DNA from: a virus | Virus record (IMG/VR): IMGVR_UViG_3300021364_000097 | Span: 1 to 32,706 of that record | Length of the DNA stretch: 32,706 bases | Direction: 5' to 3' (one strand) | Part shown: positions 49 through 29,448 of the stretch, one piece after another | How positions within the stretch are numbered: position 1 is the first letter of the stretch | How the letters are laid out: every line of letters begins with the position of its first letter | Notes under the pieces: model-generated | Databases searched by the model: none | What the model was told of the DNA's origin: nothing | The model's input: the letters and a program-made list of their open reading frames with translations, nothing else | Position numbers and translations under genes: made by a program

Positions 49-327
49 ATGTCTTTCAAAGGGTATGAGCTAGAGACAAAATATTGCTGGGTAGACAATA
101 CACCAGTCAAGATGTATTTTATTGCTGGTATGCCCTTTACATTCGATTCATTAGAAAAAGAAGACAAAGAGAATCAGTGGATACTAGCAGAATGTGCTAC
201 AAATCCAGAATTTACTCTAGATTATGTCTACTCAGCGTCTGATTATTTGATCATGGAAGAAGCACACCCATTATTGTTCAATGTACCTGTATTGAATCCT
301 GAGTTGATGCCCGATGAAACCGTTTGA
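49..327 (+). CDS. Conserved-looking hypothetical phage protein, 92 aa
   Basis: I do not recognise this 92-residue acidic protein. It is soluble, with no signal peptide or membrane segment, and has several aromatic residues (for example KYCW near residue 13 and MYF near residue 22). The ATG at 49 follows an AT-rich leader containing a late-promoter-like TTAAATAC. Its last codons overlap the start of the CpeT-like gene at 314 by 14 bases, so the two are probably translated from one message. A role linked to CpeT is possible only by position. Confidence 0.75.
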   Translation: MSFKGYELETKYCWVDNTPVKMYFIAGMPFTFDSLEKEDKENQWILAECATNPEFTLDYVYSASDYLIMEEAHPLLFNVPVLNPELMPDETV

Positions 328-841
328 AGATTGTCTGGAAGGACGTTTTAGTAATAAGTATCAAGCGATGAAGCAACCTACTAGGTATGCACACATCAAT
401 ATTGCACATGTTAGACTAGGTGATCATTTGTTTTATGGTGAGCAAGCATATGATTATAATCCTAGGCAACCATATCGTCAGTTCATTCTAAAAATACTCC
501 CTATCGGAGATGACTACATAGTACAGAACTACGAAGTTCAGGATCCTGAACAACACGTTGGTTGCAAGAATCTAGATATTCTTCGCGAAAAACCCTTGCA
601 AAGACGACTGGGTTGTGATATACTTTTTAAGTTGGACGGCGAGATGTACAAAGGTTCTCTCGCAGGCAAGGAATGTATAGTTCCATGGAGAGGTAAACAA
701 ACCTATCTCAAGAACCAAGTTGAACTCGGTGATGATTATTACTGGGTTTTAGATCAGGGATTCGACTTTGAAACCGATCGACAAGTTTGGGGAAGTGAGT
801 GGGGATTCTTGAAATTCTACCGAGAACGTGGTATAATTTGA
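314..841 (+). CDS. cpeT: CpeT-like phycobiliprotein lyase homologue (auxiliary metabolic gene)
   Basis: This 175-residue protein resembles CpeT/CpcT, bilin lyases that attach phycobilins to phycobiliprotein cysteines in cyanobacteria. Recognisable family features run in order: FSNKYQAM near residue 12, YAHINIAHVRL near 25, an EQAYDY motif near 43 followed by PYRQ, the GCD..F segment near 99, the TYLKNQVEL segment near 130, and the late D.GFD..T...VWGS.WG motif near 147-165. Length is close to that of the host family. Phage versions are known auxiliary metabolic genes, but their substrate is generally unproven, so lyase activity is inferred. The stop codon at 839-841 abuts the acceptor part of the tmRNA, so cpeT and the RNA block may share a transcript. 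Confidence 0.85.
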   Translation: MKPFEDCLEGRFSNKYQAMKQPTRYAHINIAHVRLGDHLFYGEQAYDYNPRQPYRQFILKILPIGDDYIVQNYEVQDPEQHVGCKNLDILREKPLQRRLGCDILFKLDGEMYKGSLAGKECIVPWRGKQTYLKNQVELGDDYYWVLDQGFDFETDRQVWGSEWGFLKFYRERGII

Positions 842-1019
842 GCATAGTCCTGATGGATGACTCTAAAAGACATGTAGGTGACGCCACCGACATTTCGGAC
901 AGGGGTTCGATTCCCCTCACTTCCACTTCATGGGGGTGCCATGGTCTCGACGGGGTATACGGAGCGTGACTGAAACCTGCTTGGATAAGCAACCAATAGA
1001 TGCAAAAACATCTGATGTC

Positions 1020-1073
1020 GCAGCGAACAATATCGTTGCATTCTCCCGCACTCGCGACCTCGCGACTGCCTGA
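1020..1073 (+). other. tmRNA proteolysis-tag reading frame (AANNIVAFSRTRDLATA)
   Basis: The resume codon is most likely GCA at 1020, preceded by GATGTC, much as GCA follows TAGTC in the E. coli tmRNA. Seventeen codons give AANNIVAFSRTRDLATA and then TGA at 1071. The core ANNIV.FSR matches marine Synechococcus and Prochlorococcus tags (ANNIVRFSR.. and ANKIVSFSR.. types), which supports both the RNA assignment and the host group. The C-terminus is odd: host tags end in hydrophobic-Ala-Ala (such as -VAA), whereas this ends in -LATA. Which of the two leading Ala codons is decoded first cannot be settled from sequence alone. Confidence 0.8.
1051..1066 (+). repeat. 8-base tandem duplication in the tmRNA tag frame
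   Basis: CTCGCGAC occurs twice back to back (1051-1058 and 1059-1066). Eight is not a multiple of three, so the duplication changes the reading frame of everything after it and determines the unusual -RDLATA ending of the tag. Confidence 0.9.
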
Positions 1074-1118
1074 ACGGAGATCGGGGTTAGGTTAGCCTTG
1101 TTACCCAAATAACCTATT

Positions 1119-1135
1119 GGGGGTGGGATACCCCC
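1119..1135 (+). other. Strong hairpin between tmRNA and tRNA-Thr
   Basis: GGGGGT (1119-1124) and ACCCCC (1130-1135) form a six-pair hairpin with loop GGGAT. No T tract follows and tRNA-Thr starts seven bases later, so this is more likely part of the tmRNA end or an RNA-processing signal than a terminator. Confidence 0.6.
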
Positions 1136-1141
1136 TCCCTC

Positions 1142-1213
1142 GCCCTTGTAGCTCAGTGGTAGAGCAGCTGTCTTGTAAACAGCAGGTCGTCTGTTCAAAT
1201 CAGATCGGGGGCT
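1142..1213 (+). tRNA. tRNA-Thr (anticodon UGU)
   Basis: A full cloverleaf folds by eye. Acceptor GCCCTTG pairs with CGGGGGC, the D arm is GCTC/GAGC, the anticodon stem is GCTGT/ACAGC with loop CTTGTAA (TGT), and the T arm is GTCTG/CAGAT with loop TTCAAAT. The discriminator is T1213 and no CCA is encoded. It reads ACA (and other ACN) codons, which are common in the AT-rich phage genes. It is the first of three tRNAs directly after the tmRNA. Confidence 0.95.
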
Positions 1214-1215
1214 TT

Positions 1216-1289
1216 GGGGAATTAGCTCAGTCTGGTAGAGCGCCTGCTTTGCAAGCAGGATGTCAGGAGTTCGAGTCTCCTATTCTCCA
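1216..1289 (+). tRNA. tRNA-Ala (anticodon UGC)
   Basis: Acceptor GGGGAAT pairs with ATTCTCC. The anticodon stem CCTGC/GCAGG carries loop TTTGCAA (TGC), and the T arm contains GGAGTTCGAGTCTCC. The discriminator is A1289 and no CCA is encoded. Only two bases separate it from tRNA-Thr. Alanine is also the amino acid charged on tmRNA, though that uses the tmRNA's own G.U-containing acceptor stem. Confidence 0.96.
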
Positions 1290-1312
1290 TTCGCTATTTG
1301 CGAATAGCGAAT
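1289..1312 (+). other. Perfect 10-bp hairpin between tRNA-Ala and tRNA-Asn
   Basis: ATTCGCTATT (1289-1298) and AATAGCGAAT (1303-1312) are exact reverse complements around the tetraloop TGCG. The first base is the discriminator of tRNA-Ala, so the hairpin starts where that tRNA ends. No T tract follows and another tRNA starts five bases later. An RNA-processing signal is more likely than a terminator. Confidence 0.75.
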
Positions 1313-1316
1313 ACAT

Positions 1317-1389
1317 TCCTCTATAGCTCAGTCGGTAGAGCGTCTGACTGTTAATCAGAATGTCCCTGGTTCGAGCCCAGGTGGAGGAG
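1317..1389 (+). tRNA. tRNA-Asn (anticodon GUU)
   Basis: Acceptor TCCTCTA pairs with TGGAGGA. The D arm is GCTC/GAGC, the anticodon stem TCTGA/TCAGA carries loop CTGTTAA (GTT), and the T arm is CCTGG/CCAGG with loop TTCGAGC. The discriminator is G1389 and no CCA is encoded. The next gene starts only two bases downstream, at 1392. Confidence 0.95.
1383..1387 (+). promoter_or_regulatory. Ribosome-binding site inside the tRNA-Asn acceptor stem
   Basis: GGAGG at 1383-1387 is a full Shine-Dalgarno match four bases before the ATG at 1392, and it also forms the 3' acceptor strand of tRNA-Asn. In the folded tRNA it is paired with TCCTC, and 3' processing of the tRNA would cut it from the message. Confidence 0.65.
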
Positions 1390-1391
1390 TT

Positions 1392-16341: not shown

Positions 16342-17043
16342 ATGCCGATTACAACTCCTGGGTCATCTAATTTTAATGAGATGTTGAACCCAATCATTCC
16401 CGTCAACCTAATGGGCGGAAAGGGAAATTTTGATGATTTTGTTGGTGTTTGGGAAAACTTTGTTCCAGAATCAGTTTGTACAGAACTCATTGACTTCTTC
16501 AAATGCTGGAAAGAAAATGCAACTATTGCGAATGAAGAGCGCGACTTGAAGTTGTTGGATATCGCAGATGCATCAACTGAAGCTTCTAGTGGTCAAACAC
16601 AATTCTCTTCTGGTCATCTTGGGAGAAGAGATCTTTCTCTTATGATTGATAACATGAGTGTTCCTCTTTCAAATACTGTTAATCAGTATTTGCAGTCTTG
16701 TGTTAATCATTATTGCAGAGAATATCAGGCACTTGGATCATCGCCTATCACATCTTGGTCGATCAAGATGCAAGAAACTCCTGCAGGTGGTGGATATCAC
16801 GTTTATCACTATGAGCGTGGGTCTTTTAACGAAGCAGCACGAGAACTAGTGTGGATGATTTACTTGAATGAAGATTTTGATGGTGGTGAAACTGAATTCT
16901 TCTATCAGAGAAGACGCATCAAACCTTCTAGAGGAACTGTAGTTATTTGGCCATCTGGATTTACACATACACATCGAGGCAATCTAGTCCTCGAAGGTAC
17001 TAAATATGTTGTAACAGGATGGTATTATCAGCAACCCGTTTAA
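16342..17043 (+). CDS. Prolyl-4-hydroxylase-like 2OG-Fe(II) oxygenase
   Basis: This 233-residue enzyme shows the prolyl-4-hydroxylase pattern: YHVYHYE with iron ligands H156 and E158 (an HxE variant of HxD), then the core WMIYLNEDFDGGETEFFY (about residues 172-189), a P-RGT-VIWPSGFTHTHRG segment supplying the distal histidine (H209 or H211), and KY.VTGWYY at the end. The family uses O2 and 2-oxoglutarate to hydroxylate substrates, often proline. It lies between the collar genes and a tail-assembly-type gene, so a virion protein substrate is plausible, but nothing in the sequence fixes it. Similar genes are common in cyanomyoviruses. Confidence 0.87.
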   Translation: MPITTPGSSNFNEMLNPIIPVNLMGGKGNFDDFVGVWENFVPESVCTELIDFFKCWKENATIANEERDLKLLDIADASTEASSGQTQFSSGHLGRRDLSLMIDNMSVPLSNTVNQYLQSCVNHYCREYQALGSSPITSWSIKMQETPAGGGYHVYHYERGSFNEAARELVWMIYLNEDFDGGETEFFYQRRRIKPSRGTVVIWPSGFTHTHRGNLVLEGTKYVVTGWYYQQPV

Positions 17044-17044
17044 C

Positions 17045-17920
17045 ATGAATATCACAAATAAAACCGTTATGATTAGTGGTCCTAGTAGGACCGTACAGAG
17101 AGGAACATTGACCGTTACAGTCACTGAGTCTGACTGGGAAAGATATATTGTCCCGCTTGTCTATCCTTTGTGGGATTCAGATAAGGATGTTCTGATGTCT
17201 TTTACATATCGTGATCTACCAGAAGAACAATTCTTCTGTGAGAAGAAAAAGTATGTTCGTAATCATACAACGGGAGAATATTTCTGGAAGGATTACATCT
17301 TTAGTGAAGTTGATCTTGAGGTTGCACGTAAGTTAGCGACAGATATCAGTGAAGCAATTGACGCTATCGCATCAACAACAAAGAGAGATGTTGATGAGAT
17401 GTTTAACACCATCATGAAAAGAGAAAAGGGTCTTTCTCTTGCACGAATTAAAGCATGGAGAAACTTCTTCCTATTCTCTTCTGATTGGACTATGCTGGAA
17501 GATGCTCCAATTTCAGCAGAAGAAAAAGAACAGTGGAAACTGTATCGTCAGAAGATTCGTGCGTTGCCCGATCTATTTGATGCTGGTACTAGTGTTCTTG
17601 CTGAGGTTCATATTCCTATTGATCCAATTGTTTACAGAAAGAATTATTTGCCTTATAATGATGGGGCAACTTACCTTGGAAGCGATGATCAGTTTATCTG
17701 GTTCCCAGGTAAAGATGGACTTCCTGGTGGAGCACTAGACAGAGCAATGCATGAGTATATGCATCTTGCTATTAAGATGTCTAGACCATCCCCAATGTTT
17801 AATGTTCCTAATATCTCCCATCTTACAGATCCAATCGATGCATTGGTAGCAGAGATTGAACGTGAACAAGCACTACTTGATGAATTGAGAGCACAACAAA
17901 ATGCAGCTTCGTCGGATTAA
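17045..17920 (+). CDS. Protein with phage tail-assembly-chaperone-type domain, 291 aa
   Basis: Residues about 138-177 contain SDWTMLEDAPIS, then EQWKLYRQKIRALPD. This is the signature of the small domain found in phage tail-assembly chaperones and fibre-linked proteins (Pfam Phage_tail_APC type). The N-terminal 100 residues are beta-rich and unassigned. The C-terminal third includes GGALDRAMHEYMHLAIKM and ends in a Glu/Ala-rich helix. The EYMH run is not an HExxH. It starts one base after the oxygenase stop and overlaps the next gene by 20 bases. Role in fibre assembly or as a minor virion protein is inferred. Confidence 0.68.
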   Translation: MNITNKTVMISGPSRTVQRGTLTVTVTESDWERYIVPLVYPLWDSDKDVLMSFTYRDLPEEQFFCEKKKYVRNHTTGEYFWKDYIFSEVDLEVARKLATDISEAIDAIASTTKRDVDEMFNTIMKREKGLSLARIKAWRNFFLFSSDWTMLEDAPISAEEKEQWKLYRQKIRALPDLFDAGTSVLAEVHIPIDPIVYRKNYLPYNDGATYLGSDDQFIWFPGKDGLPGGALDRAMHEYMHLAIKMSRPSPMFNVPNISHLTDPIDALVAEIEREQALLDELRAQQNAASSD

Positions 17921-18641
17921 ATGGTTAGATGATGTGGTCTGTGATCACATCGGTAACTTTTATGATTTTTGTGAATTTAAGGATGGTTCTAACACTGGAC
18001 CAAAGAATCGAGAGATCAAAAGAAATGTAGAAATGATCGACAAAGATCTTAAAGCAACATCTTTGTTGATGGATCAATTTCACAAACATCCATTCATGCA
18101 GGCACTATCATTACGTCATGTAAGTGTGCCTTTGTTTGCAGAGTATAGATCTGAAGAGGAAGGTCACTATTCATTTCATAATGATGCTCCCATCATGCAT
18201 GACCTGAGAACTGATCATTTGTTCATTACTGCTATCAATGATGAAAGTGAGTATGAAGGTGGCGACCTAATCATTCGTTGGGGAACTGAGAACCTTTCAT
18301 TCAGACTTAAGAAGGGTGAAGGTATTTTGGTTGATCCAAATTTATGGCATACTGTAACTCCAGTCACAAAAGGCAAGCGAAGAGTTTGTATTATGTGGTA
18401 TGAGAGTTTGATTCGTGATAGCACGATGAGAGAACTATACTTTGATTATGTTGATCTTTGTTATCGAGCAATGCAATGTATTGATCTACAGAAATGGAAT
18501 GAAGTATGTGATATCGATGTGGCTACATATTTCAACGGCATCAAATATAAAATTCTAAGAGAATATGGTGATGCATACCCAGGAAAACATTCCCCTGATG
18601 GTGATGTTACTGTACAACTAGACAACAAATCCTATGAATAA
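17901..18641 (+). CDS. 2OG-Fe(II) oxygenase, PKHD-hydroxylase-like
   Basis: This 246-residue protein has the double-stranded beta-helix signature HND (H93, D95), a GGDLIIRWG strand (120-128), KGEGILVDPNLWHTVTPV with the distal iron ligand H150, and KRRVCIMW with the arginine that would hold 2-oxoglutarate (R160 or R161). The spacing is like PKHD/PiuC-type hydroxylases. A C-terminal extension of about 80 residues is unassigned. The start ATG lies 20 bases inside the preceding gene and its stop overlaps the following start by eight bases, so it belongs to the same late operon. The substrate is unknown. Confidence 0.83.
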   Translation: MQLRRIKWLDDVVCDHIGNFYDFCEFKDGSNTGPKNREIKRNVEMIDKDLKATSLLMDQFHKHPFMQALSLRHVSVPLFAEYRSEEEGHYSFHNDAPIMHDLRTDHLFITAINDESEYEGGDLIIRWGTENLSFRLKKGEGILVDPNLWHTVTPVTKGKRRVCIMWYESLIRDSTMRELYFDYVDLCYRAMQCIDLQKWNEVCDIDVATYFNGIKYKILREYGDAYPGKHSPDGDVTVQLDNKSYE

Positions 18642-19005
18642 CTTTCTCACATTACAAGAACTCATCTCTGACTACGCTGTAGCAAGAGAAAAAGTTTTAA
18701 TTTGGTTTGATGCTAAGGGCATTCGTAAACTGGAGGATGCTGGAAATGTAGATAAACTAAATCAAGTCTACACTTTCTATCGTGAATTCCTACCTGATGA
18801 TGTTTACGCTGAGTTCTTTAACTCTTCCTTCGGAACATTTGAGCGTAAAGATCCTATCGTTGCACAAGATCTGGTTGAAGATTGGTTCCCACCTGTAGAA
18901 ACTCTTCCTGACTCAGATTATTATGTTTACTCATGCGTCTTCGCTAGAAATGGTGTAGTTGCGTATGAAAATGTTACGCCAACTCGTCAGGGAGATACTG
19001 ACTGA
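18634..19005 (+). CDS. Hypothetical protein, 123 aa
   Basis: An acidic protein, partly helical (DYAVAREKVLIWFDAKGI at the start), with a C-terminal WFPPVETLP segment. No recognised domain or membrane segment. It is the last forward gene before an inverted gene: its final 32 bases overlap the 3' end of the reverse-strand oxygenase at 18974. It starts within the last eight bases of the preceding oxygenase gene. Function unknown. Confidence 0.7.
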   Translation: MNNFLTLQELISDYAVAREKVLIWFDAKGIRKLEDAGNVDKLNQVYTFYREFLPDDVYAEFFNSSFGTFERKDPIVAQDLVEDWFPPVETLPDSDYYVYSCVFARNGVVAYENVTPTRQGDTD

Positions 19006-19750
19006 CGAACCATGACGCTCCCTGTTCATTAATACCATGATATTGAACAGAGTGGTCAATACCTTCTAGTTTTACACCAAACCATCCTTGCGGTTCTTTC
19101 GTGAGTAAATCTTTATCTCTTTGAGGGGTCAGTGTTACTGATCCCTTTTTAATTTCATATGGTAGATTGTACTCAACACATGCTGGTTCATATGGTCTGG
19201 TCTTCCATATGTTGTACATCAATGTGATTCTCTTCTCACCAGGATACATCTCACCATAGTTTGAAGGAACTCCATGAAAATAAGGCATTGCCCACGTTAT
19301 ATGTTTACCTGCCTTAGGTGAACTCCAAAATGACCATGCGTCTTCACCTGTAACATAAACACCATCAGTTTTACTCCAGTCATGGTATTGATCCAACAGA
19401 ATTGTGGGTTGACCTGAGTTAGTTAAATATGTTACAGTGCAGAATGGAGCAGGATAATACACACCATCTTTGTTAAACCTATCCAGATCTCCATCTACAT
19501 GGAAATACCAATAGGAACTTAGATCATCGTGCGATCTGATCCACCATTCTGCACCAACATAACTATGATACATGTTATGTTTTCTAGCAGACTCAAAAAT
19601 ATACTGCTCGATAATATTCTCTGGGTGTCTATCAAATCCGTACCACCACGTTAGTTTTTGATCTTCATCGTGTGCTAGAATGTTATCAGCTTCCTCTTTG
19701 ATGAGAGCAGTGCTCTCTTCACTGAGATAGGTACTATATGATTCAATCAT
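18974..19750 (-). CDS. Reverse-strand 2OG-Fe(II) oxygenase, 258 aa
   Basis: This is the only convincing reverse-strand gene in the window. The protein has FHVDGD (H84, D86), APFCTVTYLT (about 101-110), AMPYFHGVPS with H159, and GEKRITLMYNIW with R174. This is a complete HxD...H...R set for a 2-oxoglutarate oxygenase. A WWYGFD and an EWWIRSHDD segment lie before it, and an unassigned 75-residue C-terminus follows. Its 3' end overlaps the converging gene by 32 bases. Its start codon shares the palindrome CATG (19748-19751) with the forward gene at 19749. No promoter is obvious because the upstream sequence is coding on the other strand. Confidence 0.82.
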   Translation of the reverse strand: MIESYSTYLSEESTALIKEEADNILAHDEDQKLTWWYGFDRHPENIIEQYIFESARKHNMYHSYVGAEWWIRSHDDLSSYWYFHVDGDLDRFNKDGVYYPAPFCTVTYLTNSGQPTILLDQYHDWSKTDGVYVTGEDAWSFWSSPKAGKHITWAMPYFHGVPSNYGEMYPGEKRITLMYNIWKTRPYEPACVEYNLPYEIKKGSVTLTPQRDKDLLTKEPQGWFGVKLEGIDHSVQYHGINEQGASWFVSQYLPDELA

Positions 19751-20441
19751 GACTAATCAAATTCTTCCACTTTTTCCTACTGTTATTTACCAATGCAAAT
19801 TAGATGGGTTTGAGGAGTGGCGCGATCTTCTTCTCTCCAAGAAAGAATACCAGTTTGATCCTAATGATGGTGATCCTCATCTGACTGGTGAGTTTAGGGA
19901 CAAATGTCTCATGCATAAAGATGAAGATCTGATGTCTTTCTTTGCTGAAGTAACTGATGGTATCTACGGATGCCTGGAAGCAGCAGGAGTCAAGAAAGAC
20001 ATGCACATTCCATACATCATGAAGTCTTGGTTTACAATCAAGGACAAGTCTGATATGCTTGGTGAACATCGTCATGCATGTTCAGATCTTTCGTTTGTAT
20101 ATTATTTGACTGGTGGTCAACTGTGCTTCAAACAAGAGTGGAACGCTAACCAATACTTTGGTGGTATGCTCGATGCTAAACCACCTGAGCGTAGTCACAT
20201 TGATAATGAAACCTTCTTCACTACTAAAGTTACTGCAACTACCGTTGCTCCTGGGGATCTACTCGTCTTCCCTAGTAATCTGCTACATTTTGTTATGCCT
20301 GAGGAAGGAACAGACACAGTAGTAAGATCTGTTGCTGGTGATATTAAACTCATGCTCACTGATGAGTATACTAATCTTGAAACTGGACTGATTCATTACA
20401 GTCACTGGAGAAAGTTCAACACTAAAGGATTGCACAAATGA
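19749..20441 (+). CDS. Putative 2OG-Fe(II) oxygenase, 230 aa
   Basis: Begins with the typical LFPTVIYQ start seen in TIGR02466-like phage oxygenases. The likely iron site is GEHRHACSDLSFVYYL (H107 and H109) with distal H180 in FPSNLLHFV, and R193 at the 2-oxoglutarate position. A VAPGDLLVFPSNLLHF strand is strongly family-like. The HxH in place of HxD is shared with several other copies here, so one metal ligand may differ from the classic triad. The start overlaps the divergent reverse gene at a CATG, and the stop overlaps the next gene by four bases. Confidence 0.75.
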   Translation: MTNQILPLFPTVIYQCKLDGFEEWRDLLLSKKEYQFDPNDGDPHLTGEFRDKCLMHKDEDLMSFFAEVTDGIYGCLEAAGVKKDMHIPYIMKSWFTIKDKSDMLGEHRHACSDLSFVYYLTGGQLCFKQEWNANQYFGGMLDAKPPERSHIDNETFFTTKVTATTVAPGDLLVFPSNLLHFVMPEEGTDTVVRSVAGDIKLMLTDEYTNLETGLIHYSHWRKFNTKGLHK

Positions 20442-21088
20442 AGTACGACTACAAAATTCCTATTTTCAAGTATTCTCTAAATGATTGGGAATCCAAAAAA
20501 ATTGAAATTCTTGAATTATTAAAAACTAAGATTAATAATCCAGAAAAATATCGTAAGGACTACAGAGATCAAATCGAAATGAGTTATGGTCTAAAAGATC
20601 AACCGACTACTGAAGTTGAAACTGACTTCTATGAAGGATATACTCAAAATTGGGAGAATACTCCCCACTACAAAGGAGATATCATTGAACTTCTTTACCC
20701 TGAGTTGCGTAAACTTGTAGAAGATAGTGGTATTCCTGCTCGTTATGATGCTACAGCAATGTGGTATGAACGTGCTAAAAAAACTGAGGTTCATGGTGTT
20801 CATGATCATGGAGCAAAAGGTATTTCTGCTGTTCTATATGTTGAACTAAATGATAATCAGAAAGGAACACAATTTTATCCTGAATGGGGTGAAGACTTCA
20901 CTCTAGATCTGGATGTTAAAGAAGGAGATATTATTTTCTTCCCCTGCTGGTTGAAACATGCTGGTTCAATGAATACTGATGATGAGATTAGAACTATTGT
21001 CTCATTTAACATGATTAGAATCAGACCAGAAGAGGATGAGTGGGAACAATCAGATTCAGACTATCAACACTTCACTGTCCATGTCTAA
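20438..21088 (+). CDS. Putative 2OG-Fe(II) oxygenase, 216 aa
   Basis: The metal-binding signature is VHGVHDHGAKGIS (H122, H124, with D123 between), then KEGDIIFFPCWLKHAG with H174, and DEIRTIVSFN with R185. About 100 N-terminal residues are helical and lysine-rich, and include YEGYTQNWENTP. The fold assignment rests on the order and spacing of these motifs. It begins in an ATGA overlap with the preceding oxygenase and overlaps the next by eight bases, forming a run of three forward oxygenases probably translated from one message. Confidence 0.78.
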   Translation: MKYDYKIPIFKYSLNDWESKKIEILELLKTKINNPEKYRKDYRDQIEMSYGLKDQPTTEVETDFYEGYTQNWENTPHYKGDIIELLYPELRKLVEDSGIPARYDATAMWYERAKKTEVHGVHDHGAKGISAVLYVELNDNQKGTQFYPEWGEDFTLDLDVKEGDIIFFPCWLKHAGSMNTDDEIRTIVSFNMIRIRPEEDEWEQSDSDYQHFTVHV

Positions 21089-21683
21089 TTTTGCATTCAT
21101 ACAACCAATTGTACAATTCGAGTCTCCCAGTGTAGACATTAAGAAAATTGTTAATCGTGTCTATGACTTTTGGGACAAAAATATTGATAACACAACCATG
21201 CAAGGTGGGTATCAACTACGCCTTGTAAATCACGAGAGTGGTAAAGTGAATGAACTTTTTGTTCCAGAGATCAATGCACTCTTGCAAGAAGGTATTACAA
21301 CTGGTGTTGAGAACTATATTGCAACATTGAATATTGATCAGAAGGAAGAGTTCTCTACTAAAATTTGGATTACTAACGTGTGGATTAACGTCGCCACGCC
21401 TGGTTCTTATCATCGAACACACATTCATGGGAATTCACACTTGAATGGTATATTCTATTTGCAAGTACCAGAGAATAGTGGTGAGACATTTGTAGTTAAT
21501 CCATATCCTACTGGTGTTGAGAGTATACTGAAAACACCAAACTCATCTATCTCATTAAGTGCGCGACAAGGTGTTGGGTACATATTCTCCTCATCTTTAG
21601 CACACTACACAGACCCAAACCATTCTGAATCTGATAGGATCTCACTAGCATTTGAGATTAAACTCGATACCATACTGAAATAA
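21081..21683 (+). CDS. Putative 2OG-Fe(II) oxygenase, TIGR02466-like, 200 aa
   Basis: Motifs are WINVATPGSYHRTHIHGNS (from residue 101; H114 and H116), GIFYLQVPENSGE (about 123-135), a distal H175 in SSSLAHYTDP and R187 in DRISLAFEI. These follow the TIGR02466 pattern of putative 2OG-Fe(II) oxygenases common in cyanophages. The ATG at 21081 is preferred over an upstream in-frame start because it gives the standard FAFIQPIVQFE beginning and a short overlap with the previous gene. The gene ends an operon, as a strong terminator lies 20 bases after the stop. Confidence 0.82.
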   Translation: MSNFAFIQPIVQFESPSVDIKKIVNRVYDFWDKNIDNTTMQGGYQLRLVNHESGKVNELFVPEINALLQEGITTGVENYIATLNIDQKEEFSTKIWITNVWINVATPGSYHRTHIHGNSHLNGIFYLQVPENSGETFVVNPYPTGVESILKTPNSSISLSARQGVGYIFSSSLAHYTDPNHSESDRISLAFEIKLDTILK

Positions 21684-21704
21684 GACAGTCAGAAAAGCGT
21701 CACA

Positions 21705-21726
21705 GGGGGGTCACACGACCCCCTTT
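21705..21726 (+). terminator. Rho-independent terminator after the oxygenase operon
   Basis: GGGGGTC (21706-21712) and GACCCCC (21717-21723) form a GC-rich seven-pair stem with loop ACAC, followed by TTT. It separates the late-type oxygenase operon from the helicase gene, which has its own promoter a few bases further on. Confidence 0.85.
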
Positions 21727-21732
21727 CTGCTG

Positions 21733-21754
21733 TATAATTGATTCATCGACGGAG
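21733..21754 (+). promoter_or_regulatory. Early-type promoter and leader of the helicase gene
   Basis: A perfect -10 box, TATAAT, at 21733-21738 lies between the terminator and the helicase start. The bases after it, TGATTCATCGACGGAGA, resemble the repeated leader at 24931 and 25224 (..GTTCATCAACG..). The -35 region is poor (GTCACA at 17 bases), so an activator or extended element may be used. Confidence 0.6.
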
Positions 21755-21766
21755 ACACCACACCAC

Positions 21767-23014
21767 ATGACCCTGACCCTGCGTCCACACCAGACTCGCG
21801 CCCTTCGTGCCCTGTCTACCGCTCCCCGTGGTCGCGTGACCATCCCTACTGGCGGTGGTAAGACCCTTGTTATGATTGAGGACGTGAAGCGCACCCTTCA
21901 GGTGTCTGATCGCCCTCGCACTGTGGTTGTGGTTGCTCCTCGTATTCTTCTCGCCAACCAACTGTGTGACGAGTTCTTCACTGCTCTCAACGGCAGTGTC
22001 GATGTTGCAGTGATGCACGTTCACAGTGGTGAGACTTCTTTCAACAGCAGCACCAAAGTTGATAACATTCGTTGTCATGATGCTGTCTGCCGTACTGCTG
22101 GTGTTCATCAACTGATCTTCACCACTTACATTTCCCTGCGTCGTATCAATGAGTCAGGCATTGATATCGACCACATTTATTTTGACGAGGCACACAACAG
22201 CACTCGTCGCGATCACTTCAAGGAGACTGCGATTGCATCTCTGACTGCTAAGACTGCATATTTCTTCACGGCGACACCTAAGTATCGCCACAATGCTCAC
22301 AACAGCATGAACAATGTTGCAGTCTATGGTCCCGAACTTATCAGCGTCCCTGCTCCTGAACTGATCGACAATGGTAGCATCATTCCCCCTACCATTCAAT
22401 CTCACTTTGTTGATGTTGAGCGTCAGAAGTCTCTGTACGCTGCTGAGAACGACCGTGAGGTGCTTCTGGACATCGTGAGCAACCTTGATGCTGACTCTGC
22501 TCAGAAGATCCTTGTCGCCGCTCCTAGCACCCGTGTGCTGTGGCGTCTGCTTTCCAACACTGACGTGATGCAGCAGTTTGCTGAGCGTGGTTATGATGTG
22601 ATGCATATTACTAGCAAGCACGGTGCATACGTCAACAAAACTAAAGTCAACCGTGAAGAGTTTTTCAACACGCTGACTGCCTGGGGCAAAGATCCTTCCC
22701 GTAAGTTTGTGCTGTTCCACTACAGCATTCTGTCTGAAGGTATGAATGTCCCTGGTCTGACTCACTGCATCCTTCTTCGCAACCTGCCCATTATTGAGAT
22801 GGCGCAGACTATCGGTCGCGTGATTCGTCTTGATCGTGATGACGCTGCTGATATTGCTGCTGGTAACATCACTCCTGGTCGCCTTGATATGTATCGCAAG
22901 TCCACTGGTTATGTGACTGTGCCTGTCTTCACCAACTATGGTAAGCAGACTGAGAAGCGTCTCCAGCGTGTTGTTGATGCTATCTTCACCAAAGGCATCG
23001 CTGCAACTGAATAA
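21767..23014 (+). CDS. Superfamily 2 DNA/RNA helicase (UvsW-like)
   Basis: This 415-residue protein has all main SF2 motifs: RPHQ (6-9), Walker A PTGGGKT (27-33), APRILLANQ (Ia), DEAH (140-143), TAT (168-170), LSEGMNVPG (motif V, about 322-330) and QTIGRVIRLDR (motif VI, 347-357). It is an ATP-driven nucleic-acid translocase. The compact two-domain form suits a phage recombination or replication helicase such as T4 UvsW, though the exact subfamily is not settled. It is a single-gene unit with its own TATAAT promoter and terminators on both sides. Codons are clearly richer in C and G at third positions than in the late genes around it, which suggests either strong expression selection or a different origin. 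Confidence 0.9.
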   Translation: MTLTLRPHQTRALRALSTAPRGRVTIPTGGGKTLVMIEDVKRTLQVSDRPRTVVVVAPRILLANQLCDEFFTALNGSVDVAVMHVHSGETSFNSSTKVDNIRCHDAVCRTAGVHQLIFTTYISLRRINESGIDIDHIYFDEAHNSTRRDHFKETAIASLTAKTAYFFTATPKYRHNAHNSMNNVAVYGPELISVPAPELIDNGSIIPPTIQSHFVDVERQKSLYAAENDREVLLDIVSNLDADSAQKILVAAPSTRVLWRLLSNTDVMQQFAERGYDVMHITSKHGAYVNKTKVNREEFFNTLTAWGKDPSRKFVLFHYSILSEGMNVPGLTHCILLRNLPIIEMAQTIGRVIRLDRDDAADIAAGNITPGRLDMYRKSTGYVTVPVFTNYGKQTEKRLQRVVDAIFTKGIAATE

Positions 23015-23020
23015 TAAAGA

Positions 23021-23043
23021 AATGCTGAGGATATCAGCATTTT
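23021..23043 (+). terminator. Rho-independent terminator after the helicase gene
   Basis: AATGCTGA (23021-23028) and TCAGCATT (23034-23041) form an eight-pair stem with loop GGATA, running into a short T tract. It begins six bases after the helicase stop. Confidence 0.8.
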
Positions 23044-23087
23044 CACACATAACAATCTAAAATACTTCTGTACTACGAGAACATCTC

Positions 23088-23291
23088 ATGGGAGAATACG
23101 ACCACTGGATCGATCAAGAGAAACACCAGAAGCGTAAAGACGCATTCAATCTCTTCTATGAGAGTGTTCTCAAACCAGACAATGAACTTCGTCAAGATGC
23201 ACATGAACAATGTTGCTATCATGAATTGATGGAGTGGCGAGGAGATATTCTCGCTTACCTTGATCACCGTCGCAATCAGGAATTTCACTAA
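23088..23291 (+). CDS. Hypothetical protein, 67 aa
   Basis: A charged helical protein (WIDQEKHQKRKDAFNLFYES near the start) with HEQCCYHE near residue 43, a Cys/His cluster that could bind a metal. It has no membrane segment. An AT-rich region with TCTAAAATACTTC lies upstream at about 23058-23070 and may hold the promoter. Its stop overlaps the next start by one base (TAATG), so both are probably translated together. Family unknown. Confidence 0.65.
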   Translation: MGEYDHWIDQEKHQKRKDAFNLFYESVLKPDNELRQDAHEQCCYHELMEWRGDILAYLDHRRNQEFH

Positions 23292-23587
23292 TGACAATTG
23301 ACCCATTTGAAGGACGCCCTGAAATCAAAGGATCCGAAGAGTTTTTGCGAAAGACTTATGAAGGACAACGTAAAGATCGTATGCAAGATTGCATCGATGA
23401 TTACCTCCAAGATGATAAAGTATCAGCACGACAAACTTATGAAGAGATGCTATCTTGCGTCAATGATGTGATTGAGTATCATCGCAAGAGCATGAACCGA
23501 GCAGTCAAACTTAAAGAACTAATGCTTGGACATCGTGATATTGATCTGCTACAATCAGAGCAGACAGATTTGTTAGAGACTCTGTGA
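23291..23587 (+). CDS. Hypothetical protein, 98 aa
   Basis: A strongly charged, mostly helical protein (EEFLRKTYEGQRKDRMQDCI; IEYHRKSMNRAVKLKELMLG), possibly with coiled-coil segments. No known motif. It sits between a small Cys/His protein and an oxygenase, overlapping the latter by four bases (GTGA), so it is part of one operon. Function unknown. Confidence 0.7.
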   Translation: MTIDPFEGRPEIKGSEEFLRKTYEGQRKDRMQDCIDDYLQDDKVSARQTYEEMLSCVNDVIEYHRKSMNRAVKLKELMLGHRDIDLLQSEQTDLLETL

Positions 23588-24204
23588 ATTATAATCTTAT
23601 CAACATTTTACCTACCTGGATCATGGAATTCGATTTCCCTGACCCAGGTTCTTTTATACCATACTTCGATGATCTTACCTATCGTGATCTAAATTCGTTC
23701 GTATCACACGAGACTGATATTTTAGATCGTGAACCATTCACCAGTATCAGAGAACTGATTCTAGAACATCTACAGATCATCATTAATGAGTGTGGTTATG
23801 AGGGTGATGTTGGTTCAAGAATCACACAGTCATGGGCAATCAAGGCAACAGGCGGAAACAATACACCACCACACGTTCATCCTAACAGTCAGTTCAGTGG
23901 TGTTTGCTATTTCAATGATAGTCCACACGCACTAGTTCTCTGTCGGGAGGATATGTGGTATGATGATAAGATGCCTATCCGCGTCTTCGACTGCATAAAT
24001 GAGCATCTGTTCTTTCAGAACACTCACAACCAGTTCAGATATGAACCAAGAGCGGGTAAGATTCTCATCTTTCCGTCTACCATGAAACATTATGTCGAAA
24101 TGATTCCGCGTGAAGTCACGGAGACACGATATTCGCTAGCATTCAATACGTTCCTGACTGGTAAAGTCTTGACGGATTCCACTCTTGCCTCTATTATACT
24201 GTGA
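23584..24204 (+). CDS. Putative 2OG-Fe(II) oxygenase, TIGR02466-like, 206 aa
   Basis: Begins at GTG 23584 inside the previous stop and opens with NLINILPTWIMEFDFPDPG, the usual N-terminal strand of this group. The metal site is TPPHVHPNSQFSGVCYF (H97, H99), with distal H169 in FPSTMKHYVE and R182 in ETRYSLAFNTF. The motifs and order match the copies at 21081 and 25701, making these the closest set of paralogues in the window. The substrate is unknown. A promoter-like TTGACG-17-TATTAT (24169-24197) lies within its last codons. Confidence 0.82.
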   Translation: MNYNLINILPTWIMEFDFPDPGSFIPYFDDLTYRDLNSFVSHETDILDREPFTSIRELILEHLQIIINECGYEGDVGSRITQSWAIKATGGNNTPPHVHPNSQFSGVCYFNDSPHALVLCREDMWYDDKMPIRVFDCINEHLFFQNTHNQFRYEPRAGKILIFPSTMKHYVEMIPREVTETRYSLAFNTFLTGKVLTDSTLASIIL

Positions 24205-24500
24205 TGGAAACACTCCCTGCCGCTTTTACTCATGAACCACCAACAGGATACAGATACGAGATTGTTCGCTTTAAAGCTACTGTTCTTGCAATTTGGCTTG
24301 TTCACATTAATGGGTTTAATTACAGTGACCACGATCCTGTTTATACAATCTGGGGATTCTACAACACAAAGAAAGAGTCATTCTTTGAACCAAAAAACTC
24401 AAAGTCAGTTGGTGCAGCAGTAGACTTTGCAGACACCACACCATATTCAGCAATGACGATCAAGCGTCCGCTCACTCCAACCATTGCTAATTTCCTCTAA
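24204..24500 (+). CDS. Hypothetical protein, 98 aa
   Basis: The product starts METLPAAFTHEPPTGYRYE and contains an aromatic-rich middle (YTIWGFYNTKKESFF near residue 48) and a TTPYSAMTIKRP segment near the end. No transmembrane helix or catalytic motif is clear. A GTG one codon upstream (24201) is an alternative start. The start overlaps the oxygenase stop. I do not know the family, though the sequence reads as a compact single domain. Confidence 0.7.
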   Translation: METLPAAFTHEPPTGYRYEIVRFKATVLAIWLVHINGFNYSDHDPVYTIWGFYNTKKESFFEPKNSKSVGAAVDFADTTPYSAMTIKRPLTPTIANFL

Positions 24501-24504
24501 ATAC
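24497..24504 (+). promoter_or_regulatory. T4-late-like promoter CTAAATAC
   Basis: CTAAATAC overlaps the stop codon of the preceding gene and lies 22 bases before the ATG at 24526. It closely matches the TTAAATAC at 17-24, so the two look like the same late-promoter element. Confidence 0.5.
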
Positions 24505-24525
24505 TATCATGAATCGAGTGTAACA

Positions 24526-24687
24526 ATGAAAGCAAAACCAGAAGTACATAGAGTCGAATTCAAGGACGATAGTCGTCCTGCTCTGCTATTTCATGGGGAC
24601 ACGAAGAATCTAAAACGTTATATTCAAGACAATAGGGATTGCATTGATGCGGTTTATCAGTTAGAATGGAGATCAATTCGCTTCTGA
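24526..24687 (+). CDS. Hypothetical protein, 53 aa
   Basis: I chose the ATG at 24526 over an in-frame upstream start at 24484, because the latter lies inside the preceding gene and before the CTAAATAC motif. The product (MKAKPEVHRVEFKDDSRPAL at the start) is charged and ends DAVYQLEWRSIRF. No domain recognised. It could be a small regulatory or host-takeover protein, as is common in such gene clusters. Confidence 0.55.
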   Translation: MKAKPEVHRVEFKDDSRPALLFHGDTKNLKRYIQDNRDCIDAVYQLEWRSIRF

Positions 24688-24729
24688 GACGCCCCTAGAA
24701 GCGCCTGTAACGCCCCTGAAACCTTTATC

Positions 24730-24930
24730 ATGACCAATCCCCCTGCCGTGGTCACTGAGGTGACTCTAGACACCCACCAGATCCAGTTCATCATGGACTT
24801 GATGATGGGATGCCCTCTAGGGTTCACCAAGGACCATGCATACCAGAATGAGATCGATGATTCCAGCCTCTACAACCACTTGGATAACTGTCTACAGGAT
24901 GCTCTCGGAGAGCTGTCTGAGGGTCTATAA
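24730..24930 (+). CDS. Hypothetical protein, 66 aa
   Basis: An acidic helical protein with LDTHQIQFIMDLMMG near residue 13 and NHLDNCLQDALGELSEGL at the end. Codon use is GC-richer than in the late genes, like the helicase and the gene at 24960. The upstream 42 bases contain ACGCCCCT twice (24689, 24710) and no clear TATAAT. Its stop codon lies within the -10 box of the following gene. Family unknown. Confidence 0.65.
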   Translation: MTNPPAVVTEVTLDTHQIQFIMDLMMGCPLGFTKDHAYQNEIDDSSLYNHLDNCLQDALGELSEGL

Positions 24931-24948
24931 TAAGTTCATCAACGCAAG
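24926..24948 (+). promoter_or_regulatory. Early-type promoter with repeated leader, copy 1
   Basis: TATAAT at 24926-24931 is followed directly by TAAGTTCATCAACGCAAG (24931-24948), which recurs exactly at 25224-25241. A GGGAGACC ribosome-binding segment and the ATG at 24960 follow. No good -35 box is seen. Confidence 0.6.
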
Positions 24949-24959
24949 GGAGACCCCCG

Positions 24960-25211
24960 ATGACCGTCCAGACCGTGAAGCACTCCTTCTACAAGATCGA
25001 GATCGACACCGTTGATGCTCCCCAGCAACCCATCGTATACTTCCGCAAGTGCGGCAAGTGTACCACTGCTAAGGGCATGGATCGTCAGCACAACCGCATC
25101 GTGAACGAGACTGTGGAGGCATGGCGTCAGTTTGAGGGTCAGATCCGTCGCTACACTGTCTCTCGTGTACCAGCTGACGTAGTGGTCGGTGGTGAGATCC
25201 GCAACGCCTGA
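24960..25211 (+). CDS. Hypothetical protein with a CxxC knuckle, 83 aa
   Basis: A basic, GC-rich-codon gene. The product has beta-like segments (SFYKIEIDTVDAPQQPIVYF) and the motif RKCGKCTTAKGM near residues 29-40, a CxxC that may form half a zinc site. No second cysteine pair is present, so binding might need a dimer. It is expressed from its own early-type promoter (24926) and is a candidate host-takeover gene by context only. Confidence 0.7.
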   Translation: MTVQTVKHSFYKIEIDTVDAPQQPIVYFRKCGKCTTAKGMDRQHNRIVNETVEAWRQFEGQIRRYTVSRVPADVVVGGEIRNA

Positions 25212-25218
25212 TCTACCC

Positions 25219-25241
25219 TATACTAAGTTCATCAACGCAAG
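25219..25241 (+). promoter_or_regulatory. Early-type promoter with repeated leader, copy 2
   Basis: TATACT at 25219-25224 followed by the same 18-base leader TAAGTTCATCAACGCAAG as at 24931, then AGAGACC and the ATG at 25247. The same -10 plus leader arrangement occurs in front of two neighbouring genes. Confidence 0.6.
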
Positions 25242-25246
25242 AGACC

Positions 25247-25408
25247 ATGACCAAGGTTCAACTGCTCAGCGTGATCAGAGAGTCTGCTAAGCAACATTCT
25301 CTCACTAAGATCGAGAAGTTTCAAGTCTTCTGTAATGTGTGTGATAATGCACTACATGCAGGACAGATCACCAAAGCACAACACACTCGCTGGACTAATG
25401 TTTTCTGA
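25247..25408 (+). CDS. Hypothetical protein, 53 aa
   Basis: This small gene starts right after the second early-type leader, which is the main reason to accept it. The product begins MTKVQLLSVIRESAKQHSL and has FCNVCDNALHAG in the middle, a CxxC that may bind metal. It is basic and soluble. Its stop overlaps the next gene's start region by 11 bases. Function unknown. Confidence 0.6.
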   Translation: MTKVQLLSVIRESAKQHSLTKIEKFQVFCNVCDNALHAGQITKAQHTRWTNVF

Positions 25409-25541
25409 TGAGCAATTATTCATCATCGCTGATGCTGTAGAGGACTTTGCTGTCCTCGCACCAGAACATATTGCTGACGATTGCGATGAGATCGTCACTA
25501 TCATTGAAGCACACTTTCACAACAAGAACAATGTTCACTAA
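25398..25541 (+). CDS. Hypothetical acidic protein, 47 aa
   Basis: I chose the ATG at 25398 rather than one at 25335, since the earlier part is the other frame of the preceding gene. The product (MFSDEQLFIIADAVEDFAVL at the start) is very acidic, with several Asp/Glu and C-terminal histidines, and no membrane span. It overlaps genes on both sides. It resembles the next protein in style (acidic, helical), and the two may be distant duplicates. Confidence 0.5.
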   Translation: MFSDEQLFIIADAVEDFAVLAPEHIADDCDEIVTIIEAHFHNKNNVH

Positions 25542-25704
25542 AGAAGATACCGACTTCGTTGACTTCCTCTTCGGCAAACTCACTGCATTTGTAGATACGG
25601 AAGAACTTGATCTTCATGATGATGATTCATGCTGTGATCATCTTGAACTCAAAGCAGCAGAACTTGAGATGACTGTGGATGAGATGCTCCACGCTGATCT
25701 ATGA
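25531..25704 (+). CDS. Hypothetical acidic protein, 57 aa
   Basis: Starts at ATG 25531 within the end of the previous gene. The product (MFTKEDTDFVDFLFGKLTAF at the start) is strongly acidic, with a DLHDDDSCCDHLE patch. It opens with MF..ED/E like its upstream neighbour. Its stop overlaps the next start in ATGATA, so translation is probably coupled to the oxygenase at 25701. Confidence 0.5.
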   Translation: MFTKEDTDFVDFLFGKLTAFVDTEELDLHDDDSCCDHLELKAAELEMTVDEMLHADL

Positions 25705-26249
25705 TATATCAAGACTTTTTTCCAACTCCAGTCATAGCAGAGCAGGTTGGACATAGAATTGATAATGATAGATTGCGTGAGAAGGTATTGAACCATGCTC
25801 AACATTCAGAATCAGTATATTTTTCTAATGTTGGTGGTGAGCAGTATCATAATTTTCGTGATCGACCTTTGTTCGATGCAATCGGTAAGGCAATTCCACA
25901 ACGTGAAGATGTAAATCAAGACATCTTTAACATCTACGCATGGATCAACATCAACACTCCTGGTGCATATAACAAGAGACACCATCACATTGATCGACAC
26001 ATTATCTTTTCAGGTACTTACTATGTTGTAGCACCAGAGAATTCTGGAGACCTTAAGTTCTATGATCCACGCGGATCAATGATTGCTGAAGATGCTGCGC
26101 TAGGGTATTTCTATCAGCAACCTACGGAATCTATCAAACCTGAGGCGGGTATGCTATGGTTATTCCCGTCTTGGTTAGAGCATGAGGTTACACCAAACAA
26201 CTCTACCGAAACTCGTATCTCTATTTCATTTAACATTTCAATCCCATGA
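25701..26249 (+). CDS. Putative 2OG-Fe(II) oxygenase, TIGR02466-like, 182 aa
   Basis: A compact member of the group: IYQDFFPTPVIAEQ at the N-terminus, then WININTPGAYNKRHHHIDRH (H94, H96 and an extra HID) at about residues 81-100, GTYYVVAPENSGDLKFYDPR (105-124), WLFPSWLEHEV with H161, and ETRISISFNI with R172. It matches the 21081 protein almost motif for motif, so recent paralogy is likely. There are two possible pairs of first-shell ligands (H94/H96 or H96/D98). AT-rich late-type codons contrast with the GC-richer genes around it. Confidence 0.83.
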   Translation: MIYQDFFPTPVIAEQVGHRIDNDRLREKVLNHAQHSESVYFSNVGGEQYHNFRDRPLFDAIGKAIPQREDVNQDIFNIYAWININTPGAYNKRHHHIDRHIIFSGTYYVVAPENSGDLKFYDPRGSMIAEDAALGYFYQQPTESIKPEAGMLWLFPSWLEHEVTPNNSTETRISISFNISIP

Positions 26250-26398
26250 ACACTTTTGACGACGTGATGCTTGACCGTGCTCTGCTGTCTCTCCTGGATG
26301 ATGCAGAGGTAGATTGGACTGATGACGTGCCTGATCTGAGCCAGGAGTGGGCAGTTGAGGAACTGACCCCCGAGGCGCTCAAGGCGATGAATTGGTAG
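26246..26398 (+). CDS. Hypothetical acidic protein, 50 aa
   Basis: Begins in an ATGA overlap with the oxygenase stop. The product is very acidic (LDDAEVDWTDDVPDLS in the middle) and ends ALKAMNW. Codons are GC-rich, as in the next gene. No cysteines or membrane span. Small acidic phage proteins sometimes mimic DNA or bind host enzymes, but nothing here shows that. Confidence 0.55.
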   Translation: MNTFDDVMLDRALLSLLDDAEVDWTDDVPDLSQEWAVEELTPEALKAMNW

Positions 26399-26404
26399 TA
26401 TGAT
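26399..26404 (+). promoter_or_regulatory. -10-like TATGAT before the 26428 gene
   Basis: TATGAT overlaps the end of the preceding stop codon, and GAGAGACAGGC with a start at 26428 follows. The layout is like the TATAAT promoters at 21733 and 24926, but the leader repeat is absent. Confidence 0.35.
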
Positions 26405-26427
26405 TACTAGGTAATCGAGAGACAGGC

Positions 26428-26829
26428 ATGACCCGCACTGAGTTCGCTGACTTCGCTGCCCAGCAAGACGCTCGCAACACCATTGAACTGAACGTCCGTA
26501 AGTACACCCTGATGCTGTGTGATGCCCTGGAGCAGAACTTCGCGTCTCGTAACCGTGGTACGGTTGGTCGCCACGAGGCACCATCCTACAAGTTTGTGAT
26601 CGAGTCTGGTCGCAAATACCACAAGATCATCATGGAGGTTCCTAACCACAATCGCCCTGCTTCCCGCAGTGTCCACGCTTTCGTGGATAAGAAGACTGGT
26701 GAAGTCTACAAGGCAGCATCCTTCAAGGCACCTGCTAAGCACGTCCGCTTCAACCTGCTGCTGATTAACGATCGTGAGTGGTTGCTGGAGAACGCTGACT
26801 GGGCAGGCGGTTATCTCTACAAGCGTTGA
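26428..26829 (+). CDS. Hypothetical basic protein, 133 aa
   Basis: The first half is helical (FADFAAQQDARNTIELNVRK). The second half has beta-like segments (SYKFVIESGRKYHKIIMEV; RSVHAFVDKKTGEVYKAASF) ending in LLENADWAGGYLYKR. The protein is basic and has no cysteine pair or membrane span. GC-rich codons and a probable own promoter suggest an early gene. I do not recognise a named family. The K/R-rich strands would suit nucleic-acid binding, which is inference. Confidence 0.75.
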   Translation: MTRTEFADFAAQQDARNTIELNVRKYTLMLCDALEQNFASRNRGTVGRHEAPSYKFVIESGRKYHKIIMEVPNHNRPASRSVHAFVDKKTGEVYKAASFKAPAKHVRFNLLLINDREWLLENADWAGGYLYKR

Positions 26830-26881
26830 CGCGCTGCCCTTTTTCTGCTAAATTACTCTGTAGTTCGTTCTTCTGACCACA

Positions 26882-27118
26882 ATGTTCTATCTTGTCGCTG
26901 CTGGTAATGGTTACGCCATGGATCACGCTGGTGATACCATGTATGGAATGACTGTGTATGAAGATAACACGGTCGATATTGACGATGCTTACGACATCGA
27001 GTATGATGCTGTTGATGAGGAGGAGCAGGAGTATCTTGCTCACATCGCTTATCACATGCAGCAAATCGCCAAATTGACCGAAGAGCACCGTAAACTTAAC
27101 GAGGTATTCATCAAATGA
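26882..27118 (+). CDS. Hypothetical acidic protein, 78 aa
   Basis: The product starts MFYLVAAGNGYAMDHAGDTM and continues with a very acidic stretch (DDAYDIEYDAVDEEEQEY around residues 34-51) and a C-terminal helix IAKLTEEHRKLNEV. The hydrophobic start is too short for a signal peptide. The 52 bases upstream are T-rich and contain TAAATTACTC, a weak promoter candidate. The stop overlaps the next start by four bases. Confidence 0.65.
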   Translation: MFYLVAAGNGYAMDHAGDTMYGMTVYEDNTVDIDDAYDIEYDAVDEEEQEYLAHIAYHMQQIAKLTEEHRKLNEVFIK

Positions 27119-27384
27119 GTATTGTGACGGATGACTTGGTGGAGAATCTCATTCAACCACCCTATGTAAATCCTTTCTATGGTACACATACTACGTCTGT
27201 TGTACCACGCACAGATCTTTCAGAGGAAGATCTCACACGCTATTGGCGCTACTTCAAACGTTTCCCGAACGAATTCGCGTCGGCAGTCAACAAACTGCTC
27301 CCAAATACGTGTACCCTTGTTTCATTCGATCACCTCAACAACGTCCTTACCTATGAACAACGAACTCGCTCTTCAAATCTCTGA
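27115..27384 (+). CDS. Hypothetical protein, 89 aa
   Basis: Begins in an ATGA overlap. The product has a proline-rich NLIQPPYVNPFYGTH segment and a helical YWRYFKRFPNEFASAVNKLL around residues 43-62. No recognised domain. Its 3' end overlaps the next gene by 32 bases in another frame, a larger overlap than usual here, so one of the two starts may be mis-set. Confidence 0.6.
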   Translation: MSIVTDDLVENLIQPPYVNPFYGTHTTSVVPRTDLSEEDLTRYWRYFKRFPNEFASAVNKLLPNTCTLVSFDHLNNVLTYEQRTRSSNL

Positions 27385-27583
27385 GCAACGTGATGATCTC
27401 TGTGAGTGGATGGTTGCTCGCTTCCGCGAACTGATGGAAGAGAATCGCATCGATGATGCTATTTGTCTTGCTGATGAGTGGTTTGAGTGGGCAGATCCCG
27501 AGAACTACATAAACGAGCAAACGCTATTCTACAACGAAGATGAGCTCCTCGCACTCTACCTCAGCCTACCAGAAGCAGATTGA
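27353..27583 (+). CDS. Hypothetical acidic protein, 76 aa
   Basis: I placed the start at ATG 27353 (MNNELALQISEQRDDLCEW) because upstream in-frame codons fall within the previous gene and give an unlikely Arg/Ser-rich sequence. The product is acidic and helical with DDAICLADEWFEWADPENY, and is reminiscent of tetratricopeptide-like helical pairs, but is too short to call. It overlaps a small gene at 27540. Confidence 0.6.
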   Translation: MNNELALQISEQRDDLCEWMVARFRELMEENRIDDAICLADEWFEWADPENYINEQTLFYNEDELLALYLSLPEAD

Positions 27584-28033: not shown

Positions 28034-28036
28034 CCT

Positions 28037-29408: not shown

Positions 29409-29448
29409 GCATACCAGGAGTAAAGATCTAGATCTTTTCCCACATAAT

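Follow-up and report, generated by a model that had tools for sequence, protein, structure and literature searches.

The window, meaning the whole stretch of 32,706 nucleotides that was analysed, is a 32.7-kb virus fragment from a T4-like cyanophage, and it carries a circularly permuted tmRNA gene of the cyanobacterial type (844-1135, + strand; Table 1). The gene very probably encodes a working phage rescue RNA of this permuted type, which would append a phage tag in infected cells. Two covariance models recognize it. RF01851 (cyano_tmRNA) matches end to end at 845-1135 (145.3 bits, E 6e-40, against a curated cut-off of 70 bits), and RF04321 (tmRNA_permuted) matches 877-1062 (84.4 bits, E 5e-15, against a curated cut-off of 47 bits). 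ARAGORN likewise classes the gene as a permuted tmRNA and reads its tag as AKTSDVAANNIVAFSRTRDLATA. A first-pass annotation had proposed a phage-encoded, circularly permuted tmRNA and suggested searching with Rfam covariance models; the proposal is borne out by both models, by ARAGORN, by covariation and by genomic context, and the picocyanobacterial layout that it named is the one matched by RF01851.

The two halves of the tRNA-like domain occur in permuted order. The upstream half, or acceptor piece, contains one strand of the helix that joins the two pieces, the T arm, the 3′ strand of the acceptor stem, and the discriminator base A925; CCA is not encoded in the gene. The first-pass annotation had placed TTCGGAC, the T arm and the acceptor strand upstream of the 5′ half correctly to the base, and its six-base separation of the halves is exact. 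It had also paired GGGGGTG with CACTTCC in seven pairs that include G3.U70. Indeed, all seven form (7/7), with G3.U70 as G934.U922 and a second wobble at G4.U69. Its extent for the gene, 843-1117, holds for the coordinates of the halves and not for the end, as the terminal hairpin belongs to the gene. Spacer lengths are mostly 5-6 nt in phages and 5-18 nt in hosts; the short spacer was considered as a special feature and rejected, since 5-6 nt occurs in hosts too. In the Rfam alignment, the inter-piece helix forms 16 of 17 pairs, with one mismatch (C891/A957), and the window does not retain the 5′ hairpin present in the host model. A candidate for the upstream pseudoknot, PK1, was seen by eye in 978-995.

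Table 1. Features of the window tmRNA gene and its immediate neighbors
Feature	Position	Strand	Basis or remark
cpeT (CpeT/CpcT family, phycobiliprotein lyase-like)	314..841	+	PF06206 E 7.8e-43; phrog_488
Sigma-70-like promoter TTGAAA-N17-TATAAT, extended −10 (TG)	809..837	+	11/12 consensus matches
Whole permuted tmRNA gene (precursor)	844..1135	+	RF01851, ARAGORN
Acceptor piece, 3′ half of tRNA-like domain	844..925	+	letters and Rfam alignment
Inter-piece helix, outer parts	877-879/969-971, 881-884/964-967, 887-888/961-962	+	Rfam alignment
Inter-piece helix, P2 core	890..897 with 951-958	+	Rfam alignment, covariation of core
TTCGGAC in 3′ half	894-900	+	
T arm, loop TTCGATT	901..917 (stem 901-905/913-917)	+	covariation
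Acceptor stem 3′ strand CACTTCC, U70 = 922	918..924	+	pairing and covariation
Intervening segment (spacer) CTTCAT, 6 nt	926..931	+	predicted to be excised as the RNA matures
Coding piece: acceptor 5′ strand, D-loop region, pseudoknots, tag frame	932..1135	+	Rfam, ARAGORN
Acceptor stem 5′ strand GGGGGTG	932-938	+	pairs with CACTTCC 918-924
TCTCGACGGGG in 5′ half	about 945-955	+	
Tag frame AKTSDVAANNIVAFSRTRDLATA: resume codon GCA 1002-1004, stop TGA 1071-1073	1002..1073	+	ARAGORN, conserved A at −4
Helix-5 inner hairpin TCGCG-ACCT-CGCGA within tag frame; codons for R-D-L-A	1052..1065	+	folding, compensatory changes
Pseudoknot stem TAGGTTA 1088-1094 with TAACCTA 1110-1116	1088..1116	+	perfect 7 bp, re-paired in relatives
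Terminal hairpin GGGGG...CCCCC, gene end before tRNA-Thr	1119..1135	+	Rfam alignment
tRNA-Thr(TGT), tRNA-Ala(TGC), tRNA-Asn(GTT)	1142..1390	+	ARAGORN

Has the structure been maintained in phages? Pairing was assessed over 20 pairs of the acceptor stem, the T stem and the core of the inter-piece helix in 28 distinct aligned phage sequences. Across these pairs, 97% of cells are paired and nine pairs are changed on both sides (56 such cells); in a control with slid partners, pairing is 43-58% and double changes occur in at most 6 cells. The T stem is 100% paired in the 28 phages, with double changes in 3 pairs, while the inter-piece helix core is paired in 92% of cells, again with double changes. 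Given this degree of pairing, the many double changes, and the presence of G3.U70 in all 28 sequences, function has therefore been maintained in phages. The pseudoknot stem after the stop codon is re-paired in relatives as GACTA/TAGTC, AGTCACT/AGTGACT, AGTTA/TAACT and others, and the inner hairpin of helix 5 varies within the LATA group (TCGCG/CGCGA, TCGTG/CGCGA, TGACG/CGTCA, TCGCC/GGCGA). At the level of sequence, the helices and the tag of the phage tmRNA are held by selection.

The same evidence bears on whether the gene could be a functionless host ssrA copy, either decaying or captured by accident. T4-like cyanophages do pick up host genes, and tmRNA genes are common integration sites. 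However, in a comparison with 299 genomes of the order, the closest host DNA match reaches 72% across the full RNA, and covariation among the phages is strong. Moreover, a single branch splits phage from host tmRNAs with support of 100/100, or 100/99 without the tag frame, in a tree that is unrooted, has long branches and bootstrap values that have not settled, and draws its hosts mostly from an exact T-arm pattern. This explanation is thus largely refuted already and is hardly credible; recent capture from a host in particular was rejected on the 72% identity and the 100/99 branch obtained with the tag removed. RF01851 scores are about 300-335 bits for hosts and 109-186 for phages, with the window, at 145, scoring half of the host values. 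This lower score counts against a working rescue RNA, as do the C891/A957 mismatch, the second wobble at G4.U69 and the missing 5′ hairpin. Sequence divergence suggests instead that the tmRNA lineage has long been resident in phages. Some picocyanobacterial genomes (G049, G020, G026, G027 and others) have two or three RF01851 matches, of which the additional ones may derive from phages or from contamination of the assemblies.

The window tag differs from that of the hosts. Its frame has 23 codons, and its resume codon, GCA 1002, is secure because the A at −4 is conserved in all phages (44/44) and all hosts (115/115). This upstream A corresponds to A86 of E. coli tmRNA, a position which has been shown to be critical (PMC2481249). 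Resumption at the internal Ala codons at 1020 or 1023 was considered and rejected, as neither has an A at −4. Relative to the host tag, the host core is kept, AKTSDVA is added N-terminally, and RDLATA replaces RQxAPVAA, so that the window tag ends in LATA and not in the host-type [VI]AA. The first-pass suggestion that a phage might swap the tag is supported at the level of sequence, LATA standing against the host ...APVAA. All 116 host tags end in AA, nearly all as ...FSRQ[TA]APVAA, in a set taken from genomes by pattern, mostly the exact T-arm pattern, and parsed with ARAGORN; when the host loci nearest to the window in DNA sequence were drawn independently, all of their tags ended in PVAA (8/8). 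Among the cyanophage copies, 26 of 45 tags do not end in AA and 19 do. Counting distinct tags, 16 of 24 from cyanophages lack the AA end, versus 0 of 13 from hosts (Fisher P 7e-5). Cyanophage endings include LATA, LVTA, VAV, ALV, SLV, QTV and SCA, and PVAA or TVAA persists in a number of phage tags. The cultured phages Sf-FS3, S-SSM7 and S-CBWM1 have divergent tags, whereas those of S-CAM1 and S-CAM3 end in AA. Other permuted types on viral contigs have tags ending in AA in 13 of 13 cases, so within this sample only the cyanobacterial type departs from AA. When tags are compared within families, 31 of the 53 positions that vary fall at the third base of a codon (P 1.5e-4), a bias which argues that the tag is translated into protein. 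Taken by itself, the N-terminal extension was not significant as a conserved peptide (10 of 24 variable positions third, P 0.25).

What are the functional implications of the altered tag? Two explanations are compatible with a working rescue RNA. First, the RNA may serve rescue only, with divergent C-termini reflecting drift within the pairing limits of helix 5 and proteolysis being unaffected. The C-terminal codons are embedded in helix 5, which re-pairs as one unit, so residue changes could come from RNA structure alone; retention of PVAA or TVAA in some phage tags fits this explanation, and ribosome rescue is possible even with a tag that escapes degradation. Drift under the helix-5 constraint is therefore a serious rival to altered proteolysis, and we consider it quite plausible, if short of probable. 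It accounts less well for the third-position bias of the tag codons, for the Leu of LATA, which is kept through a CTC to TTG change while the hairpin re-pairs, and for the uniform AA ends of the other permuted types. Second, the host degradation tag may have been replaced, under selection, by a weak or redirected degron that host ClpXP reads poorly or that another protease reads, such that rescued peptides would be protected, diverted or degraded more slowly. We offer this only tentatively. If it is true, such selection would have left its mark in the repeated loss of AA, which is confined to phage lineages: on the tag-free tree, at least six changes between AA and other C-termini are needed, and none is needed among hosts. 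The ASV tag variant slows degradation in E. coli. Phage endings in AV, LV and TV resemble the E. coli AAV and ASV variants, and are suggestive because proteolysis of the AAV-type tag is slower (PMC9382460). However, LATA retains the final Ala and is harder to call, and the AA end is kept in a third of distinct phage tags.

A third possibility is that the RNA acts as a decoy, titrating SmpB so that host trans-translation is blocked, in the manner of the tRNA-like domain (TLD) of mycobacteriophage DS6A, which has no tag. An RNA that consists of such a TLD alone inhibits tmRNA in E. coli (PMC4131195), but the window gene retains an entire tag frame, from resume codon to stop codon, together with the conserved −4 A and a pseudoknot, which makes a decoy very improbable.

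How would the rescue RNA work during infection? By extension from known tmRNA biology, host RNA polymerase would transcribe the gene from the promoter inside cpeT, RNase P and 3′ nucleases would cut out the spacer, and CCA would then be added to the acceptor piece; bacterial precedents likewise suggest maturation into two pieces by cleavage. Host alanyl-tRNA synthetase would charge the acceptor piece via G3.U70, and host SmpB would deliver the RNA to ribosomes stalled on broken mRNAs. Translation would resume at GCA 1002 and stop at TGA 1071, joining the phage tag to stalled peptides. SmpB and ClpP were not found in 18 phage records, some of them fragmentary, in searches with positive controls; hence, host factors should serve the phage tmRNA. 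T4-like infection, with its host mRNA decay, would supply many stalled ribosomes, and the likely net effect would be ribosome recycling during host mRNA breakdown. An effect of the tag on proteolysis is conceivable as well, in that rescued peptides bearing the phage tag may be handled differently by host proteases.

The promoter sits inside the 3′ end of cpeT, with a predicted start at about 844, seven bases past the promoter; none of 200 shuffled sequences gave an equally good match. Other phages have, upstream of the tmRNA, a similar promoter at constant spacing or else a directly adjoining tRNA-Thr. The site between cpeT and a tRNA cluster, as described in the first-pass annotation, stands: the upstream gene matches PF06206 (E 8e-43; PHROG label “CpeT-like antenna protein”), and ARAGORN finds tRNA-Thr, -Ala and -Asn downstream, with tRNA-Thr starting at 1142. 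The tRNA cluster is followed by a JmjC/cupin-like gene, by genes for small phage proteins, and by a 3267-aa ORF that occupies the tail-fiber position of relatives. The JmjC/cupin-like gene (1392-1823) starts directly after tRNA-Asn, and Sf-FS3 has a JmjC-domain gene shortly 5′ of its tRNA/tmRNA cluster. Farther along, the stretch 16342-31609 has several genes of the 2OG-Fe(II) oxygenase type or of a similar, small hydroxylase-like type; Pfam confirms two (16342-17043 and 17901-18641), and the rest are so assigned by resemblance only.

Related tmRNAs occur in other cyanophages. The closest in the isolate collection belongs to Synechococcus phage Sf-FS3, with 89% identity across 90% of the RNA, followed by those of S-SSM7/S-SSM6a, S-CAM1, S-CAM3, AG-345-P14 and S-CBWM1. 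All eight isolate records checked score above the Rfam cut-off, as do all 18 related phage records tested (isolates and others). Scans of viral contigs added about thirty further cyanophage-type tmRNAs; a T4 portal search of 29 viral contigs gave support for one 148-kb contig only, most of the others being short fragments. The tmRNA lies shortly upstream of a long tail-fiber gene in the window, Sf-FS3 and S-SSM7/S-SSM6a, and near transaldolase in S-CAM1/3. The annotation tables of Sf-FS3, S-CAM1, S-CAM3, S-SSM7, S-SSM6a and S-CBWM1 contain no tmRNA feature; most of these six have overlapping “hypothetical proteins” there, or nothing, and AG-345-P14 is without any annotation. “Hypothetical protein” coding sequences run across the tmRNA in six public records, and such annotations are probably spurious. 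There are also structural variants. Several cyanophage-type tmRNAs (eight loci) lack the post-stop pseudoknot region and end in a short hairpin, with tags ending ...TAVAV, ...PSLV or ...AQTV, so reduced forms exist. In S-SSM7 and S-SSM6a (L003:1993-2344 and L252:1992-2343), the tag frame contains an insertion that itself forms a 10-bp hairpin and brings the tag to 31 residues.

How does the window gene compare with known systems? The novelty of a permuted phage tmRNA that the first-pass annotation implied was overstated: a 2022 survey included cyanophage ones among 53 two-piece tmRNAs in isolate phage genomes, 50 of them aquatic, named AG-345-P14 among tmRNA-bearing phages, and described in a tree legend cyanobacterial, gamma- and alphaproteobacterial tmRNA lineages common to hosts and their phages (PMC9004378). 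A merged permuted model and an updated tmRNA database, also run on RefSeq viruses, followed in 2025 (PMC11915505). Thus, the window gene belongs to an already known kind. A literature search of partial coverage found no published treatment of the tag divergence. Phage tmRNAs have so far been listed without explanation, and sequence comparison offers a concrete handle: in hosts the tag is almost fixed, whereas their phages have kept the RNA machine, changed the tag repeatedly, and re-paired the helix. This raises the question of whether ribosome rescue was taken over for recycling only, or for control of proteolysis too.

Compared with the cyano_tmRNA (RF01851) of Prochlorococcus/Synechococcus, the window gene has the same permuted order, tRNA-like domain, short spacer, absence of an encoded CCA, inter-piece helix, pseudoknot layout and core tag ANNIV.FSR; it differs in a re-paired acceptor stem, a helix 5 that is rebuilt and covarying, and an identity of 72% at best. 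The tmRNA of Sf-FS3, unannotated in PV340856, is 89% identical, has the same tag except for D to E, and likewise adjoins tRNA-Thr/Asn/Ala upstream of the tail-fiber gene, although it follows tRNA-Thr whereas that of the window follows cpeT. A LATA-type tag is common to the window and the two-piece tmRNA of AG-345-P14. One-piece tmRNAs of Streptomyces and Mycobacterium phages have the standard gene order. They, too, are ribosome rescue RNAs borne by a phage, and the tag of the listed Streptomyces phage ends in ALAA. The two-piece tmRNAs of the 2022 survey are the same kind of gene in marine tailed phages, although that of phage Melnitz is of the alphaproteobacterial type with a glutamine riboswitch (PMC9004378). 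Finally, the TLD-only decoy of the DS6A type lacks a tag frame, whereas the window gene has one of 23 codons.
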